Assembly: GCA_028715705.1 (NCBI GenBank)
Contig: JAQURJ010000002.1
Span: 1 to 64,000, forward strand
Source of the DNA: Phycisphaerae bacterium
GTDB lineage: Bacteria; Planctomycetota; Phycisphaerae; Sedimentisphaerales; Anaerobacaceae
DNA: 64,000 nucleotides
Direction of reading: 5' to 3'
Below the pieces are notes generated by a model. That model was not told where the DNA came from and did not search any database. It saw nothing but the letters and a program-made list of their open reading frames with translations. Position 1 is the first letter of the stretch. Every line of letters starts with the position of its first letter. Made by a program: the position numbers and the translations under genes. Positions 7,945 to 58,034 of the stretch are shown here, piece after piece.

Positions 7945-7991
7945 CGTCCCCGACAGGATTCGAACCTGTAACCTTCGGCTTCGGAGGCGAG
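7945..7991 (-). other. Left attachment site: displaced 3' half of tRNA-Arg
   Basis: Read on the minus strand this is the anticodon-to-discriminator half of a tRNA. It has an anticodon-loop CTCCGAA, an intact T arm (ACAGG, TTCGAAT, CCTGT), the acceptor 3' strand CGGGGAC and discriminator G. No 5' half follows. It matches the 3' half of the intact tRNA-Arg at 57,961-58,034 at 39 of 47 positions, and its GCCGA strand and CGGGGAC would still pair with the resident 5' half. The common 7-mer CGGAGGC (7,982-7,988 and 57,998-58,004), in the anticodon loop and stem, is the likely strand-exchange core. Confidence 0.75.
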
Positions 7992-8206: not shown

Positions 8207-9394
8207 TTATTGCTTAATATTGCTTAATAAAGCCGCAATTTTTGTCCACCCTAAGTATTTACAAGCTTCAAACCGAAGGTGACCGGCTACGATTTCATAA
8301 AAACCATCTTTTTGTTCAACTAAAATTGGCTGAAGAAGCCCTCTTTCTGCAATACTTTCCGCCAGCTGCTTAATGTCAGTAATATCGCTTATAGGCCCTG
8401 CATGTCGAATCTTTTCCAGCGGAATTTGAAGAACATTTTCTAATGGTCTTATGTTTTTCGCTACTTCATCCATAGCGGCTCTATATGAATATACATAAGG
8501 AATTGCAAGGTCAACAGAAGACGTTTTTTGAATAGTTTCAAATATCTCCTTTTCAATATTATATGCAATTTCAGCTCTATCTTGAACTTTTGTTTTATAT
8601 CGCAATCTAAGATACACGCCGTAGTCATATAGATTAGAGCGAATATATGGTTTTGTTCCTGTTGCCTGAATGATATCCCGTGTGATATTTTCGGCTGCGT
8701 TAAGCAGTATTTCTTCTGCTTTTTCCCAATCAGAATTATAAGTTATTCGAACAACTACTTCATCAAGTATATATGCAGCTTCTTGTGATACCGTGTAGTT
8801 AATGGCGACATTGGTAAATAGCATCGCATTTGGTATGAGCACTCTTCTACCGACAGCTTCTTCGCTTGTAATACTACCGCCTACTTGATTCAATGTTAAA
8901 TACATTGCGCCAACATCCTCAATGTCGCCGGTAAGATTAAGATTGGGGAATTGGACTCTGTCGCCTGGTCTGATAGACCTTTTTAAACAAATCAATAGCC
9001 AAGCAACTAATCCGCTCAGCGGGGTCTGAAGTGACAAACCCAATAATAAACCGCCGAATATACTAAAAAAACTGATAAAAGCTGTTAGTTTTCCAAAACC
9101 ATAAATTGCAATCAGTCCAATTATTAAAAAGGTTGCAATTCTGACGGGTTTCTTTAACATTTCTATTTCGACCGCTGGTTTTTTTTGTGTATAGATATAT
9201 TGCCGAATCAAGATAGCAACAAAACTCGAGATGGCAAAGCTTAATGCAATAAAAGACAAAGTGCCAAATAATTTGGAGTGTTGAAGAGACTTATTAAGAT
9301 GTGGCGATAAAAAAAATAATAAAGCAAAAAGACATGTAATCGAAATCCACCATACAAAAGCTATAAGACTATTATTGTTTTCTTTACATTTCAT
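8207..9394 (-). CDS. MscS-type mechanosensitive channel fused to a C-terminal ParB-like domain
   Basis: A 395-residue protein. Hydrophobic segments at about residues 10-30, 42-66, 86-107 and 108-140 precede an MscS beta domain (RPGDRVQFPNLNLTGDIEDV, then GRRVLIPNAMLFTN) and the mixed alpha/beta cytoplasmic domain to about residue 300. Residues 319-395 are a ParB/sulfiredoxin-like domain: IPLEKI, then LAESIAERGLLQPILVEQ and the nucleotide-box variant VAGHLRFEACKYLGW. In ParB-type proteins this domain binds CTP or ATP-like nucleotides and DNA. In a heptameric MscS it would hang below the cytoplasmic cage. It is the last gene of a leftward operon, 14 nt after an Rnk-like gene, with an AAGGAA ribosome site. 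The channel family is sure and the ParB homology strong; nucleotide gating is inference. Confidence 0.88.
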   Translation of the reverse strand: MKCKENNNSLIAFVWWISITCLFALLFFLSPHLNKSLQHSKLFGTLSFIALSFAISSFVAILIRQYIYTQKKPAVEIEMLKKPVRIATFLIIGLIAIYGFGKLTAFISFFSIFGGLLLGLSLQTPLSGLVAWLLICLKRSIRPGDRVQFPNLNLTGDIEDVGAMYLTLNQVGGSITSEEAVGRRVLIPNAMLFTNVAINYTVSQEAAYILDEVVVRITYNSDWEKAEEILLNAAENITRDIIQATGTKPYIRSNLYDYGVYLRLRYKTKVQDRAEIAYNIEKEIFETIQKTSSVDLAIPYVYSYRAAMDEVAKNIRPLENVLQIPLEKIRHAGPISDITDIKQLAESIAERGLLQPILVEQKDGFYEIVAGHLRFEACKYLGWTKIAALLSNIKQ

Positions 9395-9408
9395 AGATAG
9401 TTCCTTTT

Positions 9409-9888
9409 TTATAAGTGAAAGTCATCATTGGCTTCAGGTTGATAGATAATTTTATGAACATAGATATTATGTCGAATCCTATCACCTTCCTTTTTTCCGA
9501 TAAGACACATACCAATCCATGAAAATATAGAAATCTGCCCTTTAGTTGTATCTGCTTGCTCAGGATAAACCAAATTTAAAGTTACATTTTTTTCCTTGCC
9601 GGTTAAAACAGTAAATTTGGAATTCATAGTAATGATATTTCGGGGAACTAATAGCAAAGGCCGAATATCTGCTCTTTTCAATAGATGCCAAAATTTTGCA
9701 AGAAGCGTCTTTTTAACACGTCCTTTTCTTTTTTGTTCCTTAAAAGATATAAGAAGACGATAGAAATCGTTTTCGGATAATGGAATACATTTTTGCTTTC
9801 CATAAATTGAGGATAAGAACTGCTCGACATGAGATTTTCTAAACTTCCATGCTCTAAAATAACGCGCAACCAATTTAAGTTTTTTCAT
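9409..9888 (-). CDS. Rnk/GreA-C family protein, paralogue 1 (most diverged)
   Basis: A 159-residue member of the Rnk family (GreA/GreB C-terminal FKBP-like domain), which binds near the RNA polymerase secondary channel. The C-terminal domain (about residues 80-159) has ITMNSKFTVLTG, the LVYPEQAD strand, ISIFSWIGMCLIGKKEGD, and the family end motif IIYQPEANDDFHL. The N-terminal half departs from family norm: it is longer, very basic and lacks the opening ITxxDxxRL helix, so its coiled-coil arm may be remodelled. The start overlaps the upstream paralogue's stop (ATGA), and mscS-parB follows 14 nt downstream. Confidence 0.82.
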   Translation of the reverse strand: MKKLKLVARYFRAWKFRKSHVEQFLSSIYGKQKCIPLSENDFYRLLISFKEQKRKGRVKKTLLAKFWHLLKRADIRPLLLVPRNIITMNSKFTVLTGKEKNVTLNLVYPEQADTTKGQISIFSWIGMCLIGKKEGDRIRHNIYVHKIIYQPEANDDFHL

Positions 9889-10310
9889 AGATTGTAATCT
9901 CCTTGAGCTTCCGGCTGATATAATATTTCGGCTATTTTCACCCGTCCGCCTAAATTATCGCCTGCACTGCGGCCTAACACCAACAGCCCCATGGGGGTCA
10001 ATACAGATATGTTAAATTCTTCCGAACTTTGTTTGAATGTCGTTAGAGCCGTCATCGGAAACACAATGGTAAAAATCATTTCTTCGAGACTTTTTACGTC
10101 TTGCAGCTTGATTTTGGAATTCATTGTGACGCGATCTGGTTCGATAATTTCCGAAGGAACCACAACTGCTGTTTGGAGAAGAGACTGTAATTTTTCGATC
10201 CAAATTTTAATATTGCTCTTAGAATCATTTGCAGTAATTATTAAAATTTCCAATCGCTCTGCGTCAAATTCTGTAACTTTTATTTTTTCTTTTTTAAGAA
10301 TATATGACAT
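9885..10310 (-). CDS. Rnk/GreA-C family protein, paralogue 2
   Basis: A 141-residue protein. The N-terminal helix region VTEFDAERLEILI is the standard Rnk opening, a short coiled-coil arm follows, and the C-terminal domain carries VTMNSKIKL, IVFPMTAL, ISVLTPMGLLVLGRSAGD and the ILYQPEAQGDYNL end. Rnk proteins compete with GreA/GreB/DksA for RNA polymerase; which residues form the arm tip here cannot be judged without alignment. AGGAAAG lies just upstream of its ATG, and its stop overlaps the next start (ATGA). Confidence 0.86.
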   Translation of the reverse strand: MSYILKKEKIKVTEFDAERLEILIITANDSKSNIKIWIEKLQSLLQTAVVVPSEIIEPDRVTMNSKIKLQDVKSLEEMIFTIVFPMTALTTFKQSSEEFNISVLTPMGLLVLGRSAGDNLGGRVKIAEILYQPEAQGDYNL

Positions 10311-10322
10311 TGTTATCTTTCC

Positions 10323-10546
10323 TTAACTTATTTGTTCAAGTGTCACCTCTCCAACATCAGTAAGATTTGAAACAATAATGTAAATACCTTTACTTTTGTA
10401 TTCAAGGTATAGATTTTCGATGTCGAATGCTGTCTAAATTTCGGAAGTGCGGCTTGTTTGGCTTTAATTAGATAGTCTGCCATAGTTACAAAATGTAATG
10501 TTTCATTAGTTTCGAATAATACCATTTCGATATTCCATTTAGACAT
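10323..10546 (-). pseudogene. Small protein gene split by a one-base frameshift
   Basis: A strong GGAGG site precedes an ATG at 10,546 (MSKWNIEMVLFETNETLHF...). The frame runs off in a low-quality tail after about residue 38, whereas the overlapping frame continues naturally as FDIENLYLEYKSKGIYIIV and ends VGEVTLEQIS at a TAA at 10,323-10,325. The 224-nt span is one base short of a whole number of codons, consistent with a single-base loss near 10,435. The intact protein would have been about 74 residues. It is either a real decay event, a sequencing error or, less likely, programmed frameshifting. Function is not recognised; it sits between two Rnk paralogues in the same operon. Confidence 0.6.
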
Positions 10547-10567
10547 AATATACCTCCATCGACACTG

Positions 10568-10990
10568 TTAAAGAGAGCAGACGCCATTCGACTCAGGCTG
10601 ATATAATATGGTATTAATCACAAAATGTTTTCTGCCTTGTGATGATTTTAATTTAAGTACGTCATTTACATGTCGTCCCAATAATGAAATTCCCAAATAG
10701 CTTAATATTGATATTTTATTTCGATTTGGATTTGCATCTTCAGGAAAAACCAAGCTGCAATTAAATGTTTCATTATCGGTCAGAGATTTTAGCCTTACAG
10801 AGGAACACATAGTAACAATGGTGGGCTTGATTTCTCGCCAATCGACAATTTCACTTCTTCGTAGCCGTCCCTCTAACAAGTCGAATAAGTTTTGTTCTTC
10901 TTTACTTAGTTTTTTAGGGCGGTAACTTGTAATAAGCTCTTCAAGTCTTTTTCTATCATAATTCGTGATATATATTGTCCGCTTTTTCAT
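10568..10990 (-). CDS. Rnk/GreA-C family protein, paralogue 3
   Basis: A 140-residue Rnk-like protein starting MKKRTIYITNYDRKRLEELI, with an acidic/basic coiled-coil arm around residues 20-50. The C-terminal domain reads VTMCSSVRLKSL, LVFPEDANP, KISILSYLGISLLGRHVND and ends ILYQPESNGVCSL. The Cys in VTMCS replaces the usual Asn. A good GGAGGAT ribosome site lies upstream. It is co-directional with its paralogues, with 20-21 nt gaps on either side. Confidence 0.87.
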   Translation of the reverse strand: MKKRTIYITNYDRKRLEELITSYRPKKLSKEEQNLFDLLEGRLRRSEIVDWREIKPTIVTMCSSVRLKSLTDNETFNCSLVFPEDANPNRNKISILSYLGISLLGRHVNDVLKLKSSQGRKHFVINTILYQPESNGVCSL

Positions 10991-11010
10991 ATAGCTATCC
11001 TCCTGTTAAA

Positions 11011-11430
11011 TTATTCGTATAAATTCCCCTCAAATTCGGGCTGATATAACATCTTTTTAACTTTAAATTTACGCTTACCCTTTGGAACTTGCCATTCGAT
11101 AATATCTCCAACTTTGTAGCCCAATAAAGCAGTACCAATTGGAGACAAAACAGAGATTTTTCCTGCATCTAAATCAATATCAGAAGGAAAAACTATTTGA
11201 TAGGAAAGCTCTTCATGTGTTTTTAAATCTTCAATCATAAAGCGGCTATTCATAGTCACAATATCGCGAGGAACCTTGTCTGAAGAAACCATCTTAGCTT
11301 TTTCTATCTCATTTTTAAGTTTCTCGATATAATTTTGATCCTTAGAGTTATCTTTTTCTAAAGATTTAAGCATTTCAGTAAGCCTTTCATAGTCATATTT
11401 AGTGATAAAAAGCGTTTTCTTATTTCCCAT
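11011..11430 (-). CDS. Rnk/GreA-C family protein, paralogue 4 (closest to family consensus)
   Basis: A 139-residue protein with the most canonical Rnk features of the set: ITKYDYERLTEML, a predicted coiled-coil arm (about residues 22-50, LEKDNSKDQNYIEKLKNEIE), DIVTMNSRF, IVFPSDIDLDAGKISVLSP, IGTALLGYKVGDIIEW and MLYQPEFEGN at the end. Canonical members act on RNA polymerase as Gre-like or antagonistic factors. A 166-nt gap upstream separates it from paralogue 5 and may hold a promoter and a short ORF. Confidence 0.88.
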   Translation of the reverse strand: MGNKKTLFITKYDYERLTEMLKSLEKDNSKDQNYIEKLKNEIEKAKMVSSDKVPRDIVTMNSRFMIEDLKTHEELSYQIVFPSDIDLDAGKISVLSPIGTALLGYKVGDIIEWQVPKGKRKFKVKKMLYQPEFEGNLYE

Positions 11431-11471
11431 GTTTCTACCTTTCTTTATATGTAAACTATGAATTGTTTAGA

Positions 11472-11555
11472 TTAGCGCAACCTTTGTAGGCATTCTCCTG
11501 TCATCAGGTCAGAAAGAAATTTGAAATATTTAAATTTCTTGCATATTGTTTTCAT
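11472..11555 (-). CDS. Possible 27-residue small ORF
   Basis: ATG at 11,555 follows a GGTGAAG site and opens a Lys/Phe-rich 27-codon frame (MKTICKKFKYFKFLSDL...). It overlaps a perfect 9-bp palindrome (11,514-11,522 with 11,532-11,540), so the apparent coding pattern may simply reflect a regulatory inverted repeat. Weak support only. Confidence 0.22.
   Translation of the reverse strand: MKTICKKFKYFKFLSDLMTGECLQRLR
11514..11540. promoter_or_regulatory. AT-rich perfect inverted repeat between Rnk genes
   Basis: AAGAAATTT and AAATTTCTT form a 9-bp perfect inverted repeat around a 9-nt centre in the gap between paralogues 5 and 4. With no GC core it is a poor terminator; an operator or RNA processing site is more likely. 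Confidence 0.3.
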
Positions 11556-11596
11556 TTTTGCTTCACCTACATTTTTCGATTAACATTTTTTAATCG

Positions 11597-12019
11597 TCAC
11601 AACTTATAATGTTGGTTTGCTTCCGGCTGATAAAATATGTTTGATATTCGCAATTGCACCTTTTTATTATTATTGGTATTAACGACCTCGACTTTAGCTC
11701 CTGTCTTTGAACCTAAAATTGCAATCCCCATATCAGAAACTATGGAGACCTTGTCGTTGCCAAAAGAAGCGTCTTCTGGATAAGCTAACCAAAATTCCAT
11801 ATTTCTTTTATTGCCTAAATCAGTAACGCAGACTTGACAATTCATTGTTATCAAGTACGGCGGAGCCTCTTTTTGAGGGATAACATTAGTAGCGTCAAGT
11901 TTGGCTTTGAGTTTACCCAATAACTCCATATCTGATTTGGGCCAATTTTTAGCTTTGCGAATCAGACCTTGGAGCCGTTTTTTATCATAATCTGTAATAT
12001 AGAAAGCGGGCGTTTTCAT
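11597..12019 (-). CDS. Rnk/GreA-C family protein, paralogue 5
   Basis: A 140-residue protein, first clear gene of the leftward cassette. It opens FYITDYDKKRLQGLI, has an arm segment around residues 25-45, then LITMNCQVCVTDLG, LAYPEDASFGNDKVSIVSD, MGIAILGSKTGA and the end motif IFYQPEANQHYKL. AAGGAT precedes its ATG. Together the five paralogues share the YQPE end motif but are widely diverged in the arm region, which suggests functional diversification rather than recent duplication. Confidence 0.87.
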   Translation of the reverse strand: MKTPAFYITDYDKKRLQGLIRKAKNWPKSDMELLGKLKAKLDATNVIPQKEAPPYLITMNCQVCVTDLGNKRNMEFWLAYPEDASFGNDKVSIVSDMGIAILGSKTGAKVEVVNTNNNKKVQLRISNIFYQPEANQHYKL

Positions 12020-12394: not shown

Positions 12395-12425
12395 AAAAAA
12401 AAAGGCCAGCTTTTGGCCGGCCTTT
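12395..12425 (-). terminator. Rho-independent terminator downstream of hsd operon
   Basis: On the minus strand AAAGGCC...GGCCTTT forms a 7-bp stem followed by a run of T (12,403 down to 12,395). It lies about 230 nt beyond hsdS and would stop leftward transcription before the Rnk cassette. Confidence 0.65.
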
Positions 12426-12657: not shown

Positions 12658-13953
12658 TTATTTTATACTGACTTGGCCGTTCATCAGCATTGGTAAAAGC
12701 CAGTCGCGTAATTCAGCGAGTTGCTGATTCTCTTTAATAATTACACTTTTTTGTTTTTCAATACCAATCATAATTTTAGCGAATTTACCAAGAGTTATAT
12801 CATCCGGGATTTCAGAAGTGTATTTTTGAATCCCAATAAATACCAAGCCCAAAATATTTGTGCCGTTTGTGTATCCTGCCGCATATTTATGAAAATGGTT
12901 TGTATTAAATAACCGGTGTAAATAATATTTCAGGTTTTCTTTTTTAACTTTTATCGAGTTGACATGGTGAGATGAAACTATGTCACCCTTAAAAATATCT
13001 GGTATCAAAAATGCTTTTCCGATAATATCATTATCATAGTCTATAGCTGTTTGCTGTGTGTTGCACATTACTAAATCGAATGGTTTTAATATTTTTTTTT
13101 CGTTATAAGGTCCAGAATATGTTTTTAACCCGCTGTGCTTATAACTGCCGTCTATATTGAATGAGGCCAGATTTATCATAGGTATCCCCTTCCCATTTAT
13201 GGTGCTTGAGCTATATGAGACACCTCTATTGGAATCAAAGTATTTTCCGATCTGACTTACTTCCCATCCAGCGGGGATTTTTCGCTTGAGCTGTTTATCA
13301 TAGACCATTTTTCCGCCGGAGGATTTATAGGGTTTGCCGTTTTTGTCAGGAAAATCAAACTGGACAAACCAATAATCATATAGCGTCTTGGCCATTGCTT
13401 CTAACTGGGCATTGATGCGATTGTTTAGTCCTATTTTGCTATCTAAAGTATAAAGCAAATCCCCAATCCTTATCTGACGTGGCATATTAGGGAAATGGAT
13501 TTTAATTAAATCAAACATTTTTGCGGAAATACCAAAAACAGTACTACCTGAAGTTTTATTAGCAATTTCTTTTTGGCCTGTTTCGGACTGCAAATAATAT
13601 TTCAAGTATTTGTTATATATTTTCCCATTTGCGCGGAGACCAAACAGTCGCTGACTTAAGACTATCTTTTCTTCTGAATCCCATAATAACGCTTGTCCAG
13701 CAGGTGCTTCTGAAGTCAATAAAACATCGCCTCTTTTTACCTCAACTTTCATCCATTTTTTATATAGAGCTTCGTTTACATAACGAATACTATCAAGTTT
13801 ATATAAGCCATCAAACTTTACATTATCTGCTGAAATAGCTCTGTAACCAAAGGTTGACCATTCACTGCCAAGTTTTTTAGGTGTTTTACCTCTGTAATCA
13901 ATAATTTTATCCAAGCAATTTGAAATTACATCTGACATTAATATCTTACTCAA
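12658..13953 (-). CDS. hsdS: Type I restriction-modification, specificity subunit HsdS
   Basis: A 431-residue DNA-recognition subunit. Two target-recognition domains are each followed by a conserved helical spacer: MPRQIRIGDLLYTLDSKIGLNNRINAQLEAMA...YDYWFVQFDFP in the middle and IGIEKQKSVIIKENQQLAELRDWLLP at the C-terminus. The spacers set the gap between the two half-sites of a bipartite target; the target itself cannot be predicted. Its start overlaps the hsdM stop by 8 nt. No internal repeats suggesting phase variation or TRD shuffling were seen. Confidence 0.93.
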   Translation of the reverse strand: MSKILMSDVISNCLDKIIDYRGKTPKKLGSEWSTFGYRAISADNVKFDGLYKLDSIRYVNEALYKKWMKVEVKRGDVLLTSEAPAGQALLWDSEEKIVLSQRLFGLRANGKIYNKYLKYYLQSETGQKEIANKTSGSTVFGISAKMFDLIKIHFPNMPRQIRIGDLLYTLDSKIGLNNRINAQLEAMAKTLYDYWFVQFDFPDKNGKPYKSSGGKMVYDKQLKRKIPAGWEVSQIGKYFDSNRGVSYSSSTINGKGIPMINLASFNIDGSYKHSGLKTYSGPYNEKKILKPFDLVMCNTQQTAIDYDNDIIGKAFLIPDIFKGDIVSSHHVNSIKVKKENLKYYLHRLFNTNHFHKYAAGYTNGTNILGLVFIGIQKYTSEIPDDITLGKFAKIMIGIEKQKSVIIKENQQLAELRDWLLPMLMNGQVSIK

Positions 13954-15568
13954 ATCGCACCCCCTCTAATTGTTTTCTTATCTCTTTTTCCAGTTTTCTG
14001 GATTCGGCAAAGAGTGATTCCAGATTATCCGTAAAGCCGGTCATTTTGGCTTTGAACTCATTAGGGGTTATATCGACGTATTCAATTTTGACATCGAAAT
14101 ACTGCCCGGCACTTAGCGAATAATTTTTAGATTTGATTTCATCGTAGGAAACCACCACCGAGAAATCATCTTTAGCTTCCTTGTTGTTGAAAGTGCTGAT
14201 AATCTGGTTTTCTTCGTTTTCGGAAAGAAGCGTTTTTTGATTTTTGCCTTGTTTAACCTTAGTACCCAAATTGGAGGCGTCTATTAGAACGACATCTTCC
14301 TTGTTTTCTTTATCAAGAAACAAAATCGAAACATTTGTGCCGGTTGTGGCAAAGATATTGCTGGGCATTGAGACAACACCGGCAAGCATTTTTTTATCGA
14401 CCAGTTTTTTGCGAATTTTCTTATCAATGCCGCTTTGGGCGGTGATAAAGCCAGTAGGTACAACCACAGCGGCTTTGCCCTTACCAGCCATAGAATAAAT
14501 GATATGCTGCAAGAACAACTGGTAGATTGCCATTTTATCTTTTGCCTTATTAGGGATATTGGGAATCCCGGCAAAAAAGCGTTCATTATTTTCTTTTTTA
14601 TCGAGGTCGTCGCGATAATCGCTGAAATCCATTTTAAAAGGCGGATTTGAGACGATGTAATCAAAATTCATCAGGCCCTTACCATTTTTATGATAAGGAA
14701 GTTGAATTGTATTACCTTGAATGATGTTCGGCAGCGAATGGACAAGATTATTCAATATCAGGTTAAGACGCAGCAGAGTGGATGATTTTTGAGAAATATC
14801 CTGCGAATAGATAGTGCAGCGGTCTTCACCGATGGCATGGGCAAGATTCATGAGCAAAGTTCCAGAACCAGCCGCAGGGTCATAACAGGTTACATTTTTA
14901 ACCTTTTTCGTTACCAGAATGGCTGCCATAATTTTGGCCACAGCGTGAGGGGTATAGTATTCGGCATATTTGCCGCCGTTGTCTTTGTTGTAATCCTTAA
15001 TCAAGTATTCAAAAATAGTGGCATAGAAATCATATTTCTGGTTGAAAATGCCCTCGAAGCTGAATTTAACGAGTCTATTGATAATTGCTTTGCAAAAATC
15101 ATCCCGTCTGGAAGGGTCTGAGATATATTCACTAACCCGGTCAAAAAGTGTAACTTTGTGGCCGCCTTCTGTTTTGATTGCGAAAATATCGTTATTAGTT
15201 ATGGCAATATCCCGCAAGGTATCATCGAAAAGTTTGGCAAAGTCCTGCTCGTTCTGTCTGTCAAAGAGTTCAGCGATGAAGTGTTCGGGCTTGATCCGGG
15301 CAGTATCAGGCCCAATGCGGCGAAGCAGCATTTGAAAATCTTCTTCCGGCATGTCTTTGACGGCACGTTCCCATTTATCCGCATTTGCCAGCCGAGGGTT
15401 AATTTTTTTGGTCTCGAAGGCGAATTTATCATTAAGGAATTTATAAAGAAAAGCCTGTGTGATAATTTTGAATTCATTGCCGTCATTACCAAGCCCATAA
15501 GAAGCGCAGACGGCTTTGAGGTTATCAATCAGTTCCTTTGTTTTTCGTTCAAAGTCAATCGCTATCAT
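13946..15568 (-). CDS. hsdM: Type I restriction-modification, N6-adenine methyltransferase HsdM
   Basis: A 540-residue modification subunit. The N-terminal HsdM helical domain precedes SAM motif I YDPAAGSGTLLMNLAH (about residue 227 on) and the catalytic motif IV NPPF in IVSNPPFKMDF; the LLDKENKE and later KIRKKLVDKKMLAGVVSMP segments are typical of HsdM. It methylates adenines in the HsdS-defined target. It overlaps hsdR by 4 nt (ATGA) and hsdS by 8 nt, so the three subunits are translationally coupled. Confidence 0.95.
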   Translation of the reverse strand: MIAIDFERKTKELIDNLKAVCASYGLGNDGNEFKIITQAFLYKFLNDKFAFETKKINPRLANADKWERAVKDMPEEDFQMLLRRIGPDTARIKPEHFIAELFDRQNEQDFAKLFDDTLRDIAITNNDIFAIKTEGGHKVTLFDRVSEYISDPSRRDDFCKAIINRLVKFSFEGIFNQKYDFYATIFEYLIKDYNKDNGGKYAEYYTPHAVAKIMAAILVTKKVKNVTCYDPAAGSGTLLMNLAHAIGEDRCTIYSQDISQKSSTLLRLNLILNNLVHSLPNIIQGNTIQLPYHKNGKGLMNFDYIVSNPPFKMDFSDYRDDLDKKENNERFFAGIPNIPNKAKDKMAIYQLFLQHIIYSMAGKGKAAVVVPTGFITAQSGIDKKIRKKLVDKKMLAGVVSMPSNIFATTGTNVSILFLDKENKEDVVLIDASNLGTKVKQGKNQKTLLSENEENQIISTFNNKEAKDDFSVVVSYDEIKSKNYSLSAGQYFDVKIEYVDITPNEFKAKMTGFTDNLESLFAESRKLEKEIRKQLEGVRFE

Positions 15569-18500
15569 GCTGCCCGTCCGTTAAATTCGTTGACGTATTC
15601 ATTTACCACCAGATTGTTAACGTCATCAGCGGTTTTTGAATTGAGGTTTATTTTGTTTTTCGTTTCAAATTGGTCAATCACCAGCGGAGCCATCAGGCGG
15701 CTAAGATAACTTTCGTGATTAAGAAGCCGTGTATTTTGTAGAATTTGTTGGTCTGCGCCAGTTTTTATACCCATAAGAGCATCGAAAATTTTGCGTTCCT
15801 GATTAGAAAATATTGAGTTTTCTTTTAACCGCTTATGAATGCGAACGAATTTTTTATCGTTCTGGTATTTTTCTTTGAGCCGGTTATTGAGCCGATTCAG
15901 TTCTTTAACTTTTTCATGGATTTTACGCAGTGTGCCGATATTGGCGTTCATTTCTTCCTGAGTAACCTCCGAGAGGTTTTTTTTCTTGAACAGCCGCTGA
16001 AGTTCCTCATAGAGTGATACAAATTCGGGGTCTGCTTTATCAAAGTTATCAGCCAAATCTTCCCTCGTCCTGCGGAGAATATCTTTCAATTCATCGGCCA
16101 GCTTTAATTCTTCTTCTGAAATTTTTCTAAAAGCAAAATAGACGTCTTCCAACGCAATGTTTAACAGATTAAGGGTTTCCACCTTATTTTCCATTGACTC
16201 TTTCAAATTTAAGAGATCCAAACGTCTGCTAACTTCCTGATATAGGATAGAGAGTTTCTGGAAGTCTATTTTATCCAGCATGTCATAATGACCAAGAAGC
16301 CGTATAACATTATATAAGCTTCGCGCTAAGCCAAGGGCTTTTTTGATTTCCTGAATTTTTTTGCGGTCATCTATCTGGCTTATCTGCTGCGAGAAAATTT
16401 CAGCGTTTTCGGTATTAAACTCGAAAAGGGTATCTTTGATTGTCTCAATGTCTCGTTCGATTTCTTCCTTTGATTTGAATAGATTTGAATAACGTTCCAT
16501 TTCATCGCCTAATTCGGCATTAAGTTCATCGAGGTAGGCTTTGTTGGTAGCGTCAAATTCCGAGCGAATGTCAGCAAAATCGACGACATAGCCGTAGCGG
16601 AATTCATTATATGGACGATTCACCCTTGTCAGCATCTGCAAGAGATTGTGTTTTTTAGTTACACGGCCAAGATAAATCTTTTTCAGGCGTTTGGCATCAA
16701 ACCCGGTCAGCAGCATGTTGAAAACAAACAGAAAGTCAATTTTACCAGCTTTGAAATCCTCTACCCACTGTTTACGGTCGTCCTTAGTACCAATGTCATA
16801 TAGTATCAAAGCCGCAGTTTTTACCTTATATGCCTCTTTTGAAGTAGTGTCCGATGCCAGATATTTTGACTCAAATATCTCAAACATTTTTTTTGCTTGG
16901 TCGGCACTGTCACAGACGACCATGCCACCAATGGAGTTATCATCAAAAGTTCTGCGGCTTTTTTCAAAATCCTCAATGATATAATCCAGCATCGGCTCTA
17001 CAAACTGTTTATGGGCATATATATCCCGCTTGTCAATATCGCCCTGTTTTAGTTTGACGCTATCTAATATTTGCGCCAATTTCATTTTATAGCTGGTTTC
17101 TATTTCTTCACGAATCAACCGCAATGTGTAACCGTCTGCTATTGAGGCGTTATAATAATATTTATGAATATAATCACCAAAAAGCGATCTTGAATTGAAA
17201 TCATCCCCCAATAGCGGCGTTCCGGTCAGGCCAATCTTAATTGCGTTTCTGTCAGATTCATTAAGATTTGCCAGAAAGCTGCCTTTGGGATTGTAACTGC
17301 GGTGAACTTCATCGAGAAAATAAACCCGCTGAATATTAATATCATAGTCTTCGGTACGGACTACATTAGGGTCGTCCTGAAATTTATGAATATTGACAAC
17401 CGTGATTTCCGGCAGACCAGAAGCGTTATGGATTGCAGTTGTTGACTTGATGGCTCTGGCAAATTCATCTTTTGAATCGACCGTATGAACAACAAGTCCC
17501 CGGCTTGTAAATTCTCTTTTAGCCTGTATAAGTAAATCTATACGGTCAACTATGAAATAAAATTGAGGAATGATATGATTTTTTTGGAAATAATCGGTTA
17601 GAAATTTGACATTATAATAGGCCAATGCGGTTTTGCCGCTGCCCTGAGTATGCCAAATAATACCTTTTTTTACACCGTCATCGAGTTTGGCTTCAATAGC
17701 TTTGGTCGCAAAAATCTGCGGGTATCGCATGATATGCTTTTCAATGCCGTTTTCTTCTTTAACATAGGCAATTGCATACTGCAAAAGGAAAGACAGCCGC
17801 TCTTTGCTGAAAAGTGAGGTTGATAGACGATTTGTTGGAGTATTCGGGTCTTTGTTAGTTAGGAATTCGGGATTATATTTGATAACAGCCAAATTATTGT
17901 CTTTGAGAATATAATTTTCAATTTCCTCGTCTTCGTCTTTTAGTAGAATAGATAAATCAAGGTCGTGTTCTTCTCTAAAATAATTAAAAACAGGTTTATT
18001 GTATGACGGCGAAGCATAAAAAGCACCCTCGACTTGCAATGGTGATTCGTTGTCATACTCCATATTGTTGGAAAAAACCATCAATTGAGTTACGTTTATA
18101 AATTTTCTGAATTTCTTATTTTGAAACCGCCTGTTGATCCGGTCTCGCTCAGCTAAAATACCTTCTTTATTATTTGGCTTTTTCACTTCAATAAAAATAA
18201 GCGGCATTCCGTTGATTAAAAGGGTAACGTCCGGTCTAAATTCGTCATCACCATTTTTATAGGTCAGTTCCGTGACAACATGAAATGAGTTTTCGTGGAA
18301 GTGCTTAAAATCAATAAGTTTGATTCCTGATTTTTCAATCAGACGTTCATAGAACGCATGACCTAAATCTTCGTTATCCAGCAACAAAGAAACATCTGCC
18401 AATAAGCGGTCGATGTCATTATATTCGATGTCGGCATCCCTGTTGATTTTGAAAATACTTTCTTTGAAAATCTCTGGAAATATATTGGTAGATTCGTCCC

Positions 18501-18594
18501 AAACCACGTTTTTCAATGAAAGATACTGATAGCCCAGATGGGTGAGGTGTAATATAGAAGGAATTTTTACCCTTGTATCTTCATTAAATGTCAT
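15565..18594 (-). CDS. hsdR: Type I restriction-modification, endonuclease/translocase HsdR
   Basis: A 1,009-residue motor-nuclease subunit. The PD-(D/E)xK nuclease lies near residues 115-140 (FRPDVTLLINGMPLIFIEVK). The SF2 translocase carries HTQGSGKTALAYY (Walker A), FLDEVHRSYN (DEAD-like box), GLTGTPLLG (motif III), FNMLLTGFDAKRL and LLQMLTRVNRP (motifs V-VI), followed by a long coiled-coil C-terminal region that docks to HsdM. All key residues are present, so the system looks intact. A GAGG site lies upstream of the ATG. As the first gene of an R-M-S operon it is preceded by a small gene on the same strand. Confidence 0.95.
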   Translation of the reverse strand: MTFNEDTRVKIPSILHLTHLGYQYLSLKNVVWDESTNIFPEIFKESIFKINRDADIEYNDIDRLLADVSLLLDNEDLGHAFYERLIEKSGIKLIDFKHFHENSFHVVTELTYKNGDDEFRPDVTLLINGMPLIFIEVKKPNNKEGILAERDRINRRFQNKKFRKFINVTQLMVFSNNMEYDNESPLQVEGAFYASPSYNKPVFNYFREEHDLDLSILLKDEDEEIENYILKDNNLAVIKYNPEFLTNKDPNTPTNRLSTSLFSKERLSFLLQYAIAYVKEENGIEKHIMRYPQIFATKAIEAKLDDGVKKGIIWHTQGSGKTALAYYNVKFLTDYFQKNHIIPQFYFIVDRIDLLIQAKREFTSRGLVVHTVDSKDEFARAIKSTTAIHNASGLPEITVVNIHKFQDDPNVVRTEDYDINIQRVYFLDEVHRSYNPKGSFLANLNESDRNAIKIGLTGTPLLGDDFNSRSLFGDYIHKYYYNASIADGYTLRLIREEIETSYKMKLAQILDSVKLKQGDIDKRDIYAHKQFVEPMLDYIIEDFEKSRRTFDDNSIGGMVVCDSADQAKKMFEIFESKYLASDTTSKEAYKVKTAALILYDIGTKDDRKQWVEDFKAGKIDFLFVFNMLLTGFDAKRLKKIYLGRVTKKHNLLQMLTRVNRPYNEFRYGYVVDFADIRSEFDATNKAYLDELNAELGDEMERYSNLFKSKEEIERDIETIKDTLFEFNTENAEIFSQQISQIDDRKKIQEIKKALGLARSLYNVIRLLGHYDMLDKIDFQKLSILYQEVSRRLDLLNLKESMENKVETLNLLNIALEDVYFAFRKISEEELKLADELKDILRRTREDLADNFDKADPEFVSLYEELQRLFKKKNLSEVTQEEMNANIGTLRKIHEKVKELNRLNNRLKEKYQNDKKFVRIHKRLKENSIFSNQERKIFDALMGIKTGADQQILQNTRLLNHESYLSRLMAPLVIDQFETKNKINLNSKTADDVNNLVVNEYVNEFNGRAA

Positions 18595-41053: not shown

Positions 41054-42409
41054 ATGGGAATAAAAATTGAACATAGACCCAGCGGTGAATCGGTCGGTAA
41101 TATTGCTTACGCAGTGGGACAAGGAGAGGGGCTGGAACGCCGCACACAGCAGGATAGAGAATACAGTCTCCAGCGGGAAATAAACGCTATCAGAGAAAGA
41201 GCGCGTCAGGATGCGAACGCTCAGTTCTATGCTCAATTACAGGCTCAGATTCAAGCCCGCAATGACGAAATGGCATTTCGGGAAAGACAGTATGAGGAAC
41301 TTCCGGGAAGGCAGCAGCAACTTGGTGAAATTGAAAATAGTCTAAGAAAAGATTTAGGTGAATGGGAATACTCCCGCGCACAGCAGCGGGAACTTGCTAA
41401 ACTGTCACAGGCAAGAGACTATGTCACGCGCAATCCCGACGGACGCTACAGTCCGCAGGAGCAGGAAAATTTTCTTCGCCAGATAGATGAAATGGAGTTC
41501 GGCTTTAAGCCAATGCAGAAAAAGACCGAATCGCCTTGGCCTAAAGAGCAGGATGTAGGCCAGATTTGGACAGACCAGACCAGCGGCGCAACTTTAACTC
41601 GTGACGACAAAGGCAATGTCAAAGTGCTTGTTGACCCTGATGACAGCACATCTTTTGCCAACCAGCTTAAACTGAAGGAAACAATCGCCAAACACGCAAA
41701 GGATATTTACGATTCTCGTCAGATGTCGGAAAATCCTATTTCTATAGAAGAATCCTTCAAAATCGCCGAAAAATTTTATGCCGATCTTATGCCGCAGCCG
41801 CAAAATAATCCCACGCCAGCCGGTGATGAAGAAACAATGGCCGACACAATGCTTCGCAGCGTAATGAGTCCGCAAACTTATCAAGCGGCCAAAGCGACAG
41901 GACTGCCTTTAAAAGATATTTACTTTATGACTCAGCAGTTAATGTCGCAGCCGCAAGGAAGTGTTACTCTTGCAGACGACGTTAAGAAAAAAGACTGGCT
42001 TGCAAATGACAATAATTTTAATAAATTCAAAGAGCGGTACGCAAGAGGTGTTCCTCGAAGTCAGATAGAACAGGACTACCAAAATCAGAATGCTGCTCCT
42101 GATAAAATCGCTTTGGAATGGCAACAAGCCGGGGGCGATCCAAGTGCAGAGTACGCATACCAAAAATATCTCAAAGAACACAAGAAAAAAAATCTGCCCA
42201 CAAAAAAAGGATGGAAAACGGTTGATGGTGAAATTGTATCTCTTGATTGGACACCGCCTTTGACAAGAAAAGAGTTTTGGGAAAAAGCTAACGAAGATGA
42301 TGCGTTCGCAAAAAAATATTTTGCCGGAGCAATAAACAGGAAACCGCCTTCTTTCACAGGCGGCGGAATACCAACCGCAAAAGGCACAATGGCTTTGGGG
42401 ATTAGATAA
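41054..42409 (+). CDS. Putative internal/ejection protein, coiled-coil rich
   Basis: A 451-residue hydrophilic protein. Residues 25-150 are long charged helices (QQDREYSLQREINAIRERAR), a small beta segment follows (GQIWTDQTSGATLTRDDKG), and the rest is helical with Gln/Asn/Pro linkers. The C-terminus has KKGWKTVDGEIVSLDWTPP. Length, composition and place before the giant polyvalent gene match virion internal proteins. Its stop overlaps the next start by one base (TAATG). Confidence 0.65.
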   Translation: MGIKIEHRPSGESVGNIAYAVGQGEGLERRTQQDREYSLQREINAIRERARQDANAQFYAQLQAQIQARNDEMAFRERQYEELPGRQQQLGEIENSLRKDLGEWEYSRAQQRELAKLSQARDYVTRNPDGRYSPQEQENFLRQIDEMEFGFKPMQKKTESPWPKEQDVGQIWTDQTSGATLTRDDKGNVKVLVDPDDSTSFANQLKLKETIAKHAKDIYDSRQMSENPISIEESFKIAEKFYADLMPQPQNNPTPAGDEETMADTMLRSVMSPQTYQAAKATGLPLKDIYFMTQQLMSQPQGSVTLADDVKKKDWLANDNNFNKFKERYARGVPRSQIEQDYQNQNAAPDKIALEWQQAGGDPSAEYAYQKYLKEHKKKNLPTKKGWKTVDGEIVSLDWTPPLTRKEFWEKANEDDAFAKKYFAGAINRKPPSFTGGGIPTAKGTMALGIR

Positions 42410-45400
42410 TGAACTGGCAGGAAATGTTTCTCGATGACTTGACCAACCAGCGAAATGCAACCGCTGTAGCCGAACCTAAGCCAATTGGTCTATTGGAAAA
42501 CATCGAAAGAGGCGGCTGGTCTGGATTTGCAGACAGAGCCACATTCGGTGTTAAGCCGATGGTCGAAGCAGGTATGCTTTATAACGCAACCAAAAGATTC
42601 CAGCTTGATGATTACCCCCGAACTGATGAAGGCTGGCAGCAGAGACTTGATGATAAAGACCGCATTGTCGAATATCTGGAGGAACAGGCCGAAATTTCCC
42701 AGAGAGGTTTGACAATACCGGCTAAGGTGGGAACGGTTGTTTTCGATATGCTTCCCTTTATGGCGGAATTTTTGGCTACAGGCGGATTGTCAGCACTTGG
42801 CAAGGCTGCCGCTAAAAAATCTATCCTTAACTTAGCTGGGAAATACGCAGCCAGCCGTACCGCTCGTATTGCCGCTGATATTGGCTCTACTATGGTGTCT
42901 GCCGGGATAAGAAGCTCACTGACACCACAGCACATAGCGGAAAAATACTTTGAGAATCAGTTACCTCAAATGCAGCTTGATGAAAGTAATAGTGTTGTTC
43001 TCGGTGACACAGAAAATACTCCTGCCACTGCCATTTATAAAGCGATTGGCGATTGGTACATTGAGCTATTAAGCGAAGAATCCGGGGCCGGTATCGCTCG
43101 CATGGCGAAAGGTATAATGCCAAAGGGAATAAATAGTTCCGCATCGAAGCTCATAAATTCACTTCGCAGGAAATGGATAAAAGCTATGCCCGGTAGGGAT
43201 AGTGTGGCATTTGCCAAACGAATGGCTCAAAAAGCTGGTTTTCACGGCATACTTGAAGAAATGGGCGAGGAACGGCTCGGTGACTTGCTTCGTGCGACAT
43301 TTAACATCGAAGATTTTGGTCAAAAAGATGGTAATACTTTTGACAGGCTTGTTGCCGCTATCCCAGATGGCGAGCAGTTGCTTGTCGAGTCACTTGCCTT
43401 TAGCGTACCCAGTGCTGGCAGAATGGCTTTAGCGGCAGGTCACGAACTTGCGGTACAGCCTAAAAAAGAACAGCAGTCAAAAGAATATCTATTGACCCCG
43501 GAGGGTGCGCAATTGTTTGCACGATTAAATCCGCAGGCCGCTTCCACCATTGCACAAAAAGAAAATCCAAGCAGAAAGGATATGCTGGCAACCGGAATAT
43601 CACGCTGGAGCGGCGATGAGAGAAATAAGTTTTCACAGCTTTTACGGCAGTTTCAACAGCCTGCTACACAACAACCGGCGCAGGATTTGCCGCAACCGCC
43701 GATAGAAGAAGCAGAAACTTTGGAAGACCAACCAGAAGAACAACCGCCACAAGTTCCGCAAATACAAACAGACGCCGAAAAGTATTACTATTTCGACGCC
43801 GATGAGGAAAAATTTGTCGAGGCCGAAGATGCCGAAAGGATAGTTTTTCCCGGTCTTGACGGAGCTGATTTCTTTGTCGCACAGAGAAAAGGTAAATGGA
43901 GTGTCTATGAAGCCATCAGCGGTTTGCAGGTCAGCGTTAAAAACAAAACCAAAAAAGGCGCAGTACAGGAGGCTATTGAAAAATTAGGCAAACACACTGC
44001 CGATGATATTCAGAAATATATTGATGCCGCTGTAGAAAAACACGGACATAGCCCAAAGTACCCAGACTACGTTAAAACTCAGACAGAAAAACCGCAACCT
44101 AAACCAACGATGGCGAAATACGGTGATACATATACCGGAGATGCTTTCCGTGCAGAAACCGGCTTCACCCATGATAAGAATGCAACCGCTGCCGATGTTG
44201 TCAGGTATGAGCAGGATGAATTAGGTAATGATTTAGGTGTATCGGATGAACAGCTTAGCGAACTGGAAAATTACTCTGCCGACCAGATTAAATGGGTGAC
44301 AAGGACAGAAGAAGCGGCAAATAGATACGGAACGCCACAGCAGGTACAGGCTGAGGGCGGGAAAGTTATCGCTGAGATCGGCTCTGATGGTGTTTTGGTC
44401 TTAATGCAGAAAACTGAATCCAAAGAGCAACCACAAGAGCCGCAAACAACCACACCAAAGTTTAACGAAGGCCAGAAGGTTAAATACACAGACAGAACCG
44501 GTAAAATCGTTACAGGGATTGTCACTGGCACTACAAAAATCGGCGAAAAAGATTATGTGAATGTAACAGCCGATCCCGAACATGAAACAGTTGTCGGCGG
44601 CGGTATCCCGATTGGCCGAAAGGAAACTATCCCTATTGGTAAGGTGACAGCTATCGAAGAAACTGAGCGAAAAGCTGAATCGAAACCACAGCCCAAAAAG
44701 AAAAGCATTACCGAAAATCTCTCAGCCCAAAAACAACAGCGTCTTGAAGAACTCAAAAAACGGTTCAAGGATAAAATAAATAATCAGCTAAATATGGGTT
44801 TTGACCCTGAAATGCTGACAATCACCGCTGAAATGGCCGCCCTTTATATCGAGGCCGGTGCGAGAACTTTCGCCAAGTTTGCAAAAGCGGTTGTTGCTGA
44901 TGTCGGCGGTCAGTTTAAGCCGTATCTTAAAAGCGCATACCTTGCGGCACGGAATATGCCGGGTATGGAAGATTTTCGCAGCGAAATGGATGGGGCTGAT
45001 TTTGTTGATAAATTGACGGACAGGGAAATTTCTAATATATTGGAAACAGATTCAAAGGAGACAGACAATGCTGGATTGGAACATAGAGGATTGGAAGAAA
45101 CTGGATTTGAGCGGCAAGGACAGCAATCTGATTCAGGCGGCTCTATGGCATCTTCAGGAACAGTGGCCGCGGAAACTGGAGAGGCTTCTATTGAAGGGCA
45201 AGCTGATGAATTATCTTCTGGACGTTCACGACAAGGCACTGGAGCAGAGGACGATACTCAATCAGCAGAACATGCCGGAGGACGTAGTCGAGGAGATGAT
45301 ACACAGACAGGTGGTAGCACCGGAAAATCCCAAGTACCCGGACATGGAAGTGGAGGATCAGATTCTAAACGAGAAGGCGACGAAGCTGCTGGAACAGTTC

Positions 45401-48400
45401 AACAACCTTCTGTGGAGGGACAAGGAAGATTACGACCAGATGCAGTTAACCACAGGATAGCTTCCGATGATGTAATCGCCCCAAAAGGTGCTATTACACA
45501 AATAAAAGCCAATATCGAGGCGATAAAACTATTAAAACAGCTTGAAGCTGAAAACCGCAACGCAACACCCGAAGAACAAAAAATTCTCGCTCAATATAGC
45601 GGCTGGGGGAATCTCTCACAGGTTTTCCACGAAGGCTATGGCCGGGCAATGATTGCCTTTGAGAATAATGAGGACGAATATGAATGGAAGTGGAGCCGAG
45701 ACGAGAATTGGGAAAAAAAATGGGGCAAATACTATAAGCAATTAAAAGAACTTCTCACCGAGCAGGAATTTAACGCCGCTGCCGCTTCTACACTTAACGC
45801 TCATTACACTGAAAGAGGTGTAATTGAGTCGATGTGGGATATGGCCGAAAAACTTGGCTTTAAGGGGGGAACTATTCTCGAACCGGGTGCAGGGATTGGG
45901 CATTTCTTCGGCCTTATGCCGCAGCAGCTTTCAGAAAACAGCAAACTTATCGGTGTTGAACTTGACTCTATCAGCGGTCGCATTCTTTCAAAACTGTACC
46001 CGAAGGCAAAGACATTTAACAAGGGCTTTGAGGATGTAAATATCCCGCCCAATTCAGTTAATTTGGTTATATCAAATTATCCATTCGCTCAGCAAGGCCC
46101 GGCTGATGCGAAAAAACGGTACGGTATAGATTTGAATCTGCACAATTATTTCTTTGCACGCAGTATTGACGCTCTGCGTCCGGGTGGAGTGCTTATCGCA
46201 ATTACTACCCATCACACGATGGATTCGGCGATGAACCAAAGAAAACTGCTCGCTTCAAAAGCAGAGCTTATCGCCGCAATCAGGCTTCCCAATACCGCAT
46301 TTAAGGAAAACGCCGGTACGGAAGTCACTACCGATATTATCATTCTGCGAAAACCTTTGACAGAGCAAATAGGCGGTAGCGACTGGACAAGGGTGGGTGA
46401 AATCGAAACTGAAGAAAGCAAGGTCGCCAGCATAAACGAATATTTCATCAGTAACCCCGAAATGATGTTGGGTAAGCCGAGTATGGAAGGCTCTTTGTAT
46501 GGGGCAGAAGAAGAATTTACCTTAAAACCATTGGATATGCCGCTTTCGCAGTCTATTGATGAGGCTATTGAGAAACTGCCTGAGAACATAATTTCCGCTG
46601 ATACTGCCGATGTCGATTTTGAGGATATTGGTTCTGCTGACGGGTACAAGGATAATTCGCTTATTTTCCAGAACGGAAAATTAGTTGTTTTGCAGGAGGG
46701 TAAATTTGTACCTGTATCGGAAGTAAGCGACAAACTAAAATCAGCCAGCGCGAAAAAACAGGCCATTCGCTACATAAAACTTCGTGACACATACCAACAG
46801 CATCTTCAAACAATGCTTCGTGAAGACGCTACAGACGACGATATTATCCAGTCCCAAAAGAAATTAAACGAAGCCTACGATGAATATATCGCAAAATACG
46901 GCTTTGTTACCAACGACAGTACCAAGAAATTCTCGTTTGATCCGGGCTATTACCTTGTCGCCTCTCTTGAAGAAGTACATACATCCAAAGACCTTGTAAC
47001 CGGCAAGGACGTAAAACAGGTCGATAAGGCCGCTGTCTTTACTAAAAGGACAATCGAACCTGTCAGACCCCCGGCAAATGCAGAAAGTCTCGCCGACGCA
47101 TTGAAGATTTCACTGTGCTATCGGGGTAAGGTCGATATTAGGTATCTATCAGAACTGATAAATAAAAGTGTGGAAGATGTTCAAAAGCAGCTTTTAGACA
47201 GCGGTATCGCTTACGATAATCCCGCTACCGGCCTTTGGGAAACTTCTGAGCGGTATTTAAGCGGCAATGTCCGGGAAAAACTGCGCGTAGCAGAGGTTGC
47301 CGCAAATAGCGATAAGCATTTTGAAAAGCATGTCAAAGCCCTCGCTGAAATCCAGCCTAAAACGGTAGGTATAAAGGATATTCATTTCAGGCTCGGTGCG
47401 GCATGGATACCGCAGGATATTATTCAGGACTTTGCCCGTGACATCCTCTCCAGCCCATACGCAAAGGTGAAATATGTCGCAAGCCTCGATGAATGGACGG
47501 TCGTTTCCGATAGTTTTGTTCACAACGCCCGAAATACCGAGACCTACGGCACGAAAAGGTTCTATGGGCATGAACTTCTGGAAAAAGCCCTGAATATGCG
47601 CCAGATCAGGGTGACTGATAAAATTAAGGATGGCGACAGCACTCGAACCGTCTTTAATCAGAAGGAAACCCTTGCGGCTCAGATGGTTGTTGAAAAACTC
47701 CAGCAGGAATTTTCAAAATGGATTGAAAAGCATGATGAATACTCCCTGAAATTGCAGGAAGAATATAACGAGCATTTTAATTTCTATGTAACCCCCAAAT
47801 ATAACGGTCAGCATTTGGAACTGCCCGGTTCGAGCAATGTCTTTCAATTAAGAGACTATCAAAAGAACGTCGTCTGGCGGATGCTTCAGGATAGATGCGG
47901 TATGATTGCTCATTGTGTCGGTGCGGGGAAAACTTTGGCAATGGCCGCAACTGCTATGGAGATGCGAAGGCTTGGTTTGGCTAAAAAGCCTTTGATTGTG
48001 GTTCAAAACTCTACGCTTGGGCAGTTTCCGTCACAGTTTAGGGCGATGTACCCAACAGCCAATATACTTGTGGCAACGCCGGAAGACCTTGAGGCGAAAA
48101 AACGCCGTGTCTTTATGGGTCGTATTGCATCGGGTGATTACGATTCCATCATAATGGCACAGAGCAGTTTCGACCTTATCCCCAATGACCCGGCCAGACA
48201 AGAAGAGTATATGCACCAGCAGATGGCTGAGTTAAAGGATAGTCTCTATGATGTTGCCGCTGCTGAGGGTGATAAAAGTCCATCTGTAAAGGCGATTCAA
48301 AGAAGGTTAAAATCACTTGAAAAGAAATTAACTAAACTGCGTGATAAACTCTCCGCTCGGCAGGACGATGTGATAAACTTTGAGCAGCTTGGTATTGACG

Positions 48401-57847: not shown

Positions 57848-57871
57848 TTCATGCTCCTTAAAACTTAAAAG

Positions 57872-57890
57872 GTTATAAAAAAAGTTATAA
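57872..57890 (+). repeat. Right arm-type repeat pair, GTTATAA x2
   Basis: Two direct GTTATAA copies start at 57,872 and 57,884, 12 nt apart, between the integrase ATG and the tRNA. Motif, spacing and strand equal those at 8,114/8,126, supporting a shared binding protein and thus a common element. A CACG-n6-CGTG inverted repeat follows at 57,893-57,906. Confidence 0.55.
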
Positions 57891-57913
57891 GGCACGAAAA
57901 AACGTGTAAAGGG

Positions 57914-57954
57914 CAAAAGAAAAGCCCTCGTAAGGTTATTATTTACAAGGGCTT
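57914..57954 (-). terminator. Rho-independent terminator after tRNA-Arg
   Basis: On the minus strand AAGCCCT (57,954-57,948) pairs with AGGGCTT (57,928-57,922), followed by TTCTTTT. It lies 7 nt beyond the tRNA 3' end and would stop tRNA transcription before int. Confidence 0.75.
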
Positions 57955-57960
57955 ATGAAA

Positions 57961-58034
57961 CGTCCCCGGCGGGACTCGAACCTGCAACCTTTGGCTCCGG
58001 AGGCCAACACTCTATCCAATTGAGCCACGGGGAC
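57961..58034 (-). tRNA. tRNA-Arg(CCG), integration target
   Basis: A 74-nt cloverleaf on the minus strand: acceptor GTCCCCG/CGGGGAC with discriminator G, D arm GCTC/GAGT, anticodon arm TTGGC-CTCCGGA-GCCAA (anticodon CCG), T arm GCAGG-TTCGAGT-CCCGC. No CCA is encoded. The T stem has an A-C mismatch (51-63), absent from the displaced half at 7,945-7,991. If the element crossed over at the anticodon loop, everything 3' of about 58,004, including this T arm, was supplied by the element. Confidence 0.93.

Follow-up and report, generated by a model that had tools for sequence, protein, structure and literature searches.

The Rnk protein of Escherichia coli has been described as a factor of unknown function (available part of PMC4598747); it binds RNA polymerase and displaces the Gre factors and DksA (same source and established knowledge). 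Subfamilies of MscS channels differ by added transmembrane or ligand-binding domains, with bCNG cited (available part of PMC4560390). The ParB-CTPase fold binds cytidine, adenosine or guanosine triphosphate (CTP, ATP or GTP) across many fusions; loops of CTP binders include GLLQS and GLQEP, replacement of the arginine in GxxR abolished nucleotide binding, and the partner nucleotide is not predictable from sequence (available part of PMC12704722). Here we analyzed a seven-gene locus in which these families stand together: five Rnk-type genes, one small frameshifted gene and one gene for a fusion of an MscS channel with a ParB-type domain. It lies at positions 8207-12019, on the minus strand, of a 64,000-nt stretch of DNA, called the window below, from contig C2 (JAQURJ010000002.1) of the 2.33-Mb assembly of a Phycisphaerae bacterium (GCA_028715705.1). 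Tentatively, we prefer to read it as a stress-adaptation operon carried as prophage cargo, which joins Rnk factors with a putative nucleoside triphosphate (NTP)-gated MscS channel.

Gene order and the Rnk-type proteins

The genes follow each other in the order RnkA, RnkB, RnkC, small gene, RnkD, RnkE and channel (5′ to 3′; Table 1), and are presumably co-transcribed. Their positions and frames on one strand confirmed an original prediction made from the letters of this DNA. Its description of mostly 20-nt gaps or ATGA overlaps held for RnkB-RnkC (20 nt), RnkC and the small open reading frame (ORF; 21 nt), RnkE and the channel (14 nt), and RnkD and RnkE (4-nt ATGA overlap), but not for the 166-nt gap between RnkA and RnkB.

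All five Rnk proteins passed the Pfam GreA_GreB cut-off of 26.9 bits, with 86.6, 51.2 (RnkC), 43.0 (RnkA), 40.4 (RnkE) and 30.6 bits (RnkD). The NCBIfam Rnk equivalog cut-off of 109 was passed by RnkB alone (121.1). RnkA (80.9), RnkC (76.9), RnkD (67.5) and RnkE (59.1) are, by this measure, divergent Rnk relatives and not equivalogs. Identity of the other four proteins to RnkE was 27-31%. RnkB matched PDB 2pn0 and E. coli Rnk (3bmb) in sequence. For RnkE, the lowest against the NCBI Rnk model, an AlphaFold model (predicted local distance difference test, pLDDT, 86.9) had E. coli Rnk (3bmb) as its top PDB match, with a template modelling (TM, target) score of 0.78. The Rnk fold with a short N-terminal coiled coil was found in this model, RnkE being the one Rnk protein examined in this way.

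In a FastTree tree of 101 Rnk rows and 139 columns, in which many forks were open, RnkA formed a set of six rows with orthologues from genomes G472, G433, G537, G504 and G503 (local support 100). RnkB (6 rows, support 94) and RnkE (12 rows, support 99) also grouped with rows from other genomes. RnkD paired with a protein of G478 (support 96) and, less firmly, with one of G537 (87). RnkC was on a long branch with no reliable partner in this tree.

The host genome had one other GreA/B-type gene outside the array, and no DksA/TraR family match at E 0.01 in this metagenome-assembled genome (MAG; 95.67% complete). The array would therefore supply most of the detectable secondary-channel factors of its host.

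Two kinds of Rnk fusion were seen elsewhere. Other genomes of the window's family carried an RnkD-type protein fused to an uncharacterised N-terminal domain, present in many of them (L185:7634-8365, L183:7981-8682, L195:8210-8937) with the motif YYHxCWW...HTK.H..F; one copy scanned had no Pfam match, and standalone copies followed a Rnk gene in L195. In other families of the phylum (G324, G126), a Rnk domain stood behind what looked by eye like a TetR-type DNA-binding domain (L121:7741-8829, plus strand; L119:8504-9628, minus strand), and these fusions adjoined another Rnk gene.

The channel and its ParB-fold domain

The channel protein passed the Pfam cut-offs for the MscS beta-domain (PF00924, 35.5 bits against 20.2) and for ParB_N (PF02195, 43.3 against 26.3); the C-terminal MscS model PF21082 stayed below its cut-off (17.6 against 21). 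Its AlphaFold model, built with 46 sequences, had a pLDDT of 84.6 and matched the MscS fold of 7onj with E 8e-13. The best structural match of the C-terminal domain was Noc (7ol9; Z 12.7, 1.3 Å over 75 residues, 35% identity), and further matches were ParB bound to cytidine diphosphate (CDP) or CTPgammaS, and sulfiredoxin.

The Box I loop GLLQP and the Box II GxxR were near-invariant in the alignment of the channel family. Among 46 aligned channels, 45 of which reach the domain, G352 was conserved in 44, Q355 in 43, P356 in 44, G371 in 45 and R374 in 44. Together with the published survey of this fold (available part of PMC12704722), this conservation makes NTP binding by the domain likely.

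A Pfam scan found neither a helix-turn-helix (HTH) DNA-binding domain nor a dimerisation domain, and the protein stops at residue 395, just past the fold. The idea of a ParB-type partition protein was rejected on these grounds. The predicted MscS-ParB channel was right as to both families, but of ParB it has only the N-terminal nucleotide-binding fold, without the HTH.

A single scan, made over 84,980 named species genomes, kept 80 of 89 channel relatives, and 49 of the 80 had a ParB-type domain by a profile built in this analysis. By their record titles, these 49 came from Planctomycetota, Lentisphaerae/Verrucomicrobia, Bacillota, Chloroflexi, Latescibacterota and others. Near-full-length relatives were also present in a sample of the phylum. 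The host itself had a second MscS-ParB channel (C57:6615-7838, L037), 47% identical to the first, in a 14-kb contig with no Rnk gene. Archaeal relatives (L249, L251-L260; by title Bathyarchaeota, Brockarchaeota, Thaumarchaeota or uncultured archaeon) were 44-57% identical over the matched MscS part and lacked the ParB domain. Channels of Poribacteria without the domain (L263, L265, L266, L268, L269, L273, L274) shared a neighborhood that by eye resembled PhoU and phosphate-transport genes.

Linkage of Rnk and channel genes in other genomes

The closest counterpart was in G537, where RnkA, RnkB, RnkD, RnkE and the channel were in the window order, with the same RnkD/RnkE overlap and a 16-nt gap after RnkE, beside a priA-like gene. 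In two Pirellulaceae-type MAGs (L228, L234), a DksA/TraR-type gene was followed by the channel and two Rnk genes, with gaps of 151 and 154 nt. A Rhodopirellula MAG (L238) had HPF, Rnk and, after 1.0 kb, the channel (within 1.1 kb). In G429, a small gene and a Rnk gene were followed after 81 nt by a decayed channel gene that had lost its middle. Contrary to the possibility raised with the original prediction that these genes do not co-occur outside this genome, they do so in G537, G429, L228/L234 and L238, and the idea of several RNA-polymerase-directed factors with one channel survived the comparison.

In 161 genomes of the order, three of five ParB-type channels adjoined Rnk genes, the G537 channel among them being cut before its ParB part. 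Among the named species, Rnk-linked loci made up 3 of the 49 ParB-type channels; all three were among the 17 in Planctomycetota, and none among the 32 elsewhere. In 1.01 Mb around the 80 channels, 10 Rnk genes in four loci were observed against about 0.3 expected, a rough figure that assumes 1.5 Rnk genes per 5-Mb genome. The majority of channels, like the majority of Rnk arrays, occur without the other, and their adjacency exceeds rough chance; judged by gene neighborhoods, the link between them is real but optional.

Among other neighbors, a GT20 trehalose synthase gene was beside the G428/L219 channel. A Pfam tally of channel neighbors gave no recurrent partner family beyond 2-4 members. 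The tally covered 118 ORFs, namely 111 of 191 counted and 7 added by hand; three of the latter were already-known Rnk/HPF genes, whose counts are not independent, and four came from other loci.

The Rnk array and its small gene

A Rnk profile found 79 matches in 41 of the 161 genomes of the order. Same-strand Rnk neighbors less than 1 kb apart were present in 13 of the 161, in 14 clusters: five genes in the window genome, four in G537, three in G504 and two in the rest. Orthologues of four of the five window paralogues (RnkA, RnkB, RnkD and RnkE) recurred in the same order, mostly in tandem, as A-B-D-E in G537, A-B-E plus the small gene in G504, B-small-D in G478, A-B in G472, A-E in G503 and B-E in G142. 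The neighbors of several arrays resemble what we take to be priA, pyrF, hisS, bioB and leuA; the chromosomal site of the B-E pairs was fixed, with hisS-like and bioB-like genes next to it.

Because subfamilies A, B, D and E recur, often beside housekeeping-like genes, the set in the window resembles an enlarged form of an old chromosomal array that is prophage-borne in this genome. The alternative named with the original prediction, that these are chromosomal housekeeping copies in relatives without the element, was borne out in part: orthologues of RnkA, RnkB, RnkD and RnkE look chromosomal there, which argues against an element-specific system. Between RnkA and RnkB of G472, an ORF that by eye is HNH- or AP2-like was seen (L077:11582-11887, plus strand).

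The first frame of the small gene (10546-10343) encodes 67 amino acids, and homology goes on in another frame to about position 10318. It is a frameshifted copy of a conserved family of about 75 amino acids, with intact relatives elsewhere. A profile of four copies, including the hand-joined window reading, gave 19 matches in 13 other genomes, each sharing its locus with a Rnk gene on the same strand; the 288 loci searched were nearly all picked for Rnk, channel or tRNA matches and are not an unbiased sample. None of the 80 channel loci had a match to this profile, and two intact copies scanned with Pfam gave no family over cut-off. By its neighborhoods, the small gene belongs to the Rnk array. 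A plain indel or an assembly error is as likely a source of the frameshift as programmed frameshifting.

Prophage setting

The array is within a prophage of about 50 kb with recognizable terminase, portal, head, primase and integrase genes. The 3′ half of a tRNA gene marks its ends: the pattern occurs exactly twice in the genome, once in the intact gene and once, as the distal attachment site, just past the channel gene (Table 1). Prophage genes, an integrase and an attachment-site pair agree with the mobile element that had been predicted. The operon had a G+C content of 0.346; in stretches of two other contigs of the genome it was 0.45-0.47. The type I restriction-modification genes upstream look like neighboring cargo, a unit separate from the Rnk operon with a hairpin between them. 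Inside the prophage, a single open frame of 3883 codons (window 42409-54060, plus strand) had methyltransferase-like and helicase-like stretches by eye.

Table 1. Features of the prophage end and of the Rnk-channel locus in the window
Feature	Position	Strand	Description
Displaced 3′ half of tRNA-Arg(CCG)	7945-7990	-	Distal attachment site; matches the 3′ half of the intact tRNA at 40 of 46 bases
MscS-type channel with C-terminal ParB-CTPase-fold domain (residues ~320-395)	8207-9394	-	395 amino acids; Pfam, AlphaFold
RnkE	9409-9888	-	159 amino acids; basic N-terminal helix extension and Rnk fold
RnkD	9885-10310	-	141 amino acids; ATGA overlap with RnkE
Small frameshifted gene	10318-10546	-	Three-frame translation and profile matches
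RnkC	10568-10990	-	140 amino acids; without clear orthologue
RnkB	11011-11430	-	139 amino acids; nearest to canonical Rnk
RnkA	11597-12019	-	140 amino acids; divergent Rnk/GreA-C protein, subfamily A
Terminator-like hairpin between hsd genes and RnkA	12401-12425	-	10-pair stem, then T run
Type I restriction-modification hsdS, hsdM, hsdR	12658-18594	-	PADLOC Specificity_I, MTase_I, REase_I
Integrase	56591-57916	-	PHROGs phrog_1, E 3e-36
Intact tRNA-Arg(CCG)	57961-58034		Adjoins integrase

Possible functions

As a stress-adaptation operon, the locus might work as follows. The five Rnk-type proteins would bind the secondary channel of the host RNA polymerase, displace Gre factors and reset transcription under stress; the diverged copies probably differ in affinity or regulation. 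The channel would have one ParB-CTPase-fold domain per subunit, below the cytoplasmic cage, which would bind an NTP (CTP or ATP) through GLLQP and GxxR. Channel opening would depend on nucleotide supply plus membrane tension, and the release of ions or solutes would be coupled to the same energy state that limits transcription. We read the locus as a stress module from the DksA/TraR, HPF and trehalose-synthesis neighbors of its relatives, the NTP-binding type of fold and the role of Rnk. A stronger version, in which an NTP-gated (perhaps CTP-gated) mechanosensitive channel and the Rnk panel form one regulatory unit, so that one nucleotide signal coordinates membrane leak and transcription, spread partly by prophages, is possible, if doubtful. 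If true, nucleotide supply, RNA polymerase and turgor would be connected in a new way.

Several observations weigh against a stress operon with a gated channel. The G537 channel is cut by a contig end before its ParB part, and L228 and L234 are near-identical, hence not independent. The flanks of 46 of the 49 ParB-type channels (8 kb at most, and less where a contig ended) had no Rnk gene, and 12 of the 14 tandem Rnk clusters of the order had no adjoining channel. No Rnk gene was found beside the near-full-length channels of the phylum sample by a hidden Markov model search with a positive control, and a class-wide search, with channels in 7 of 397 genomes, gave no further Rnk linkage. The second channel of the host is likewise without a Rnk neighbor. 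The ParB-less channels of archaea and Poribacteria show that the channel fold can do without the domain. Within the window, the small gene is frameshifted, and promoter-like sites were not above chance in a promoter scan (15 against 19.1).

The separateness of most channels and most Rnk clusters, and the fixed place of the B-E pairs, could also be explained if the families were unconnected, with Rnk arrays being ordinary, vertically inherited transcription factors of this order, the channel an ordinary osmotic valve with a ParB domain that binds a nucleotide for reasons unrelated to Rnk, and their adjacency without functional meaning. We consider this rather unlikely, since adjacency occurs in at least three separate settings (G000/G537, the Pirellulaceae-type MAGs and the Rhodopirellula MAG), far above rough chance, and a short gap and the same gene order are shared by two families of the order. 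The position of the operon in the prophage, between the attachment site and the restriction genes, suggests a benefit to the prophage instead: the Rnk set might tune host transcription for the lysogen or phage as TraR does, TraR being a plasmid-borne secondary-channel factor (available part of PMC4598747), and the channel might be a fitness or superinfection gene. This is unlikely, given that the closest relatives of RnkA, RnkB, RnkD and RnkE look chromosomal, that RnkB had two weak partial matches in 50,697 phage records and that the Rnk profile had none in viral contigs. A tether, in which the ParB domain would tie the channel to DNA or to a partner rather than gate it, is suggested by Noc, the best structural match and a membrane-linked CTP switch (available part of PMC8429893). 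As the protein ends right after the fold and the Pfam scan showed neither an HTH nor a dimerisation domain, it seems highly improbable.

The original prediction had suggested an abortive-infection-type defence, in which the Rnk proteins would sense a hijacked RNA polymerase and the channel would open the membrane. As prophage cargo, the operon does adjoin a type I restriction system, and it lies at the element end distal to the integrase, which is a common place for accessory genes. Other evidence makes this idea very unlikely. A PADLOC search of nine proteins, the channel, RnkB and RnkE among them, identified nothing beyond the type I restriction genes, apart from a weak MTase_II match of the channel through its ParB part; RnkB and RnkE had no match. 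Channel and Rnk profiles found no relative in viral contigs, and plasmids and phages had no channel-ParB fusion; ordinary rnk genes do occur on plasmids. Relatives adjoin housekeeping or stress genes, no recurrent defence family was among the 25 commonest listed per scan for the 118 ORFs near channels, and restriction genes were seen next to no copy but that of the window. There are also small sets of diverged Rnk genes that lack a channel altogether. Finally, the frameshifted small gene and the G429 relative with the lost channel middle could point to a decaying remnant with no function in this strain. We give this little credence, as the reading frames of all five Rnk genes and of the channel gene are uninterrupted over their full length and the window channel keeps the ParB motifs listed above.

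The MscS-ParB fusion, which occurs in several bacterial phyla, would offer a direct and testable example of ion-channel control by an NTP. With its multiplied Rnk genes and their channel partner, the operon is a first genetic handle on Rnk-type function.

Comparison with known systems

The locus is made of known folds, combined in an MscS-ParB fusion and a multi-Rnk array that look undescribed. A literature search returned nothing on the fusion, on a multi-Rnk operon or on their pairing, and searches on Rnk in Planctomycetota, MscS in phage defence and Rnk in osmotic stress returned nothing on this arrangement. In the available main text of PMC12704722, the words mechanosensitive, MscS, channel and transmembrane are absent.

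The locus shares with E. coli Rnk (3bmb) the fold, by the RnkE model and the RnkB sequence match, and the motifs VTMNS and YQPE, and differs in having five diverged copies in an array with a small partner gene. Like TraR, the window Rnk proteins are predicted RNA-polymerase secondary-channel binders on a mobile element; unlike TraR, they have the Gre/Rnk fold rather than the DksA fold and are present in several copies. The window channel resembles MscS channels with a ligand-binding domain, such as bCNG, in its MscS pore and cage fold with a C-terminal domain of ligand-binding type, but the added domain is of the ParB-CTPase fold and not a cyclic-nucleotide-binding domain. This domain has the fold, the Box I loop GLLQP and the Box II GxxR in common with ParB, Noc, sulfiredoxin, SerK and the fusions surveyed for this fold (available part of PMC12704722). 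In contrast to those proteins, it is fused to a membrane channel, without an HTH and with no parA gene in the operon.

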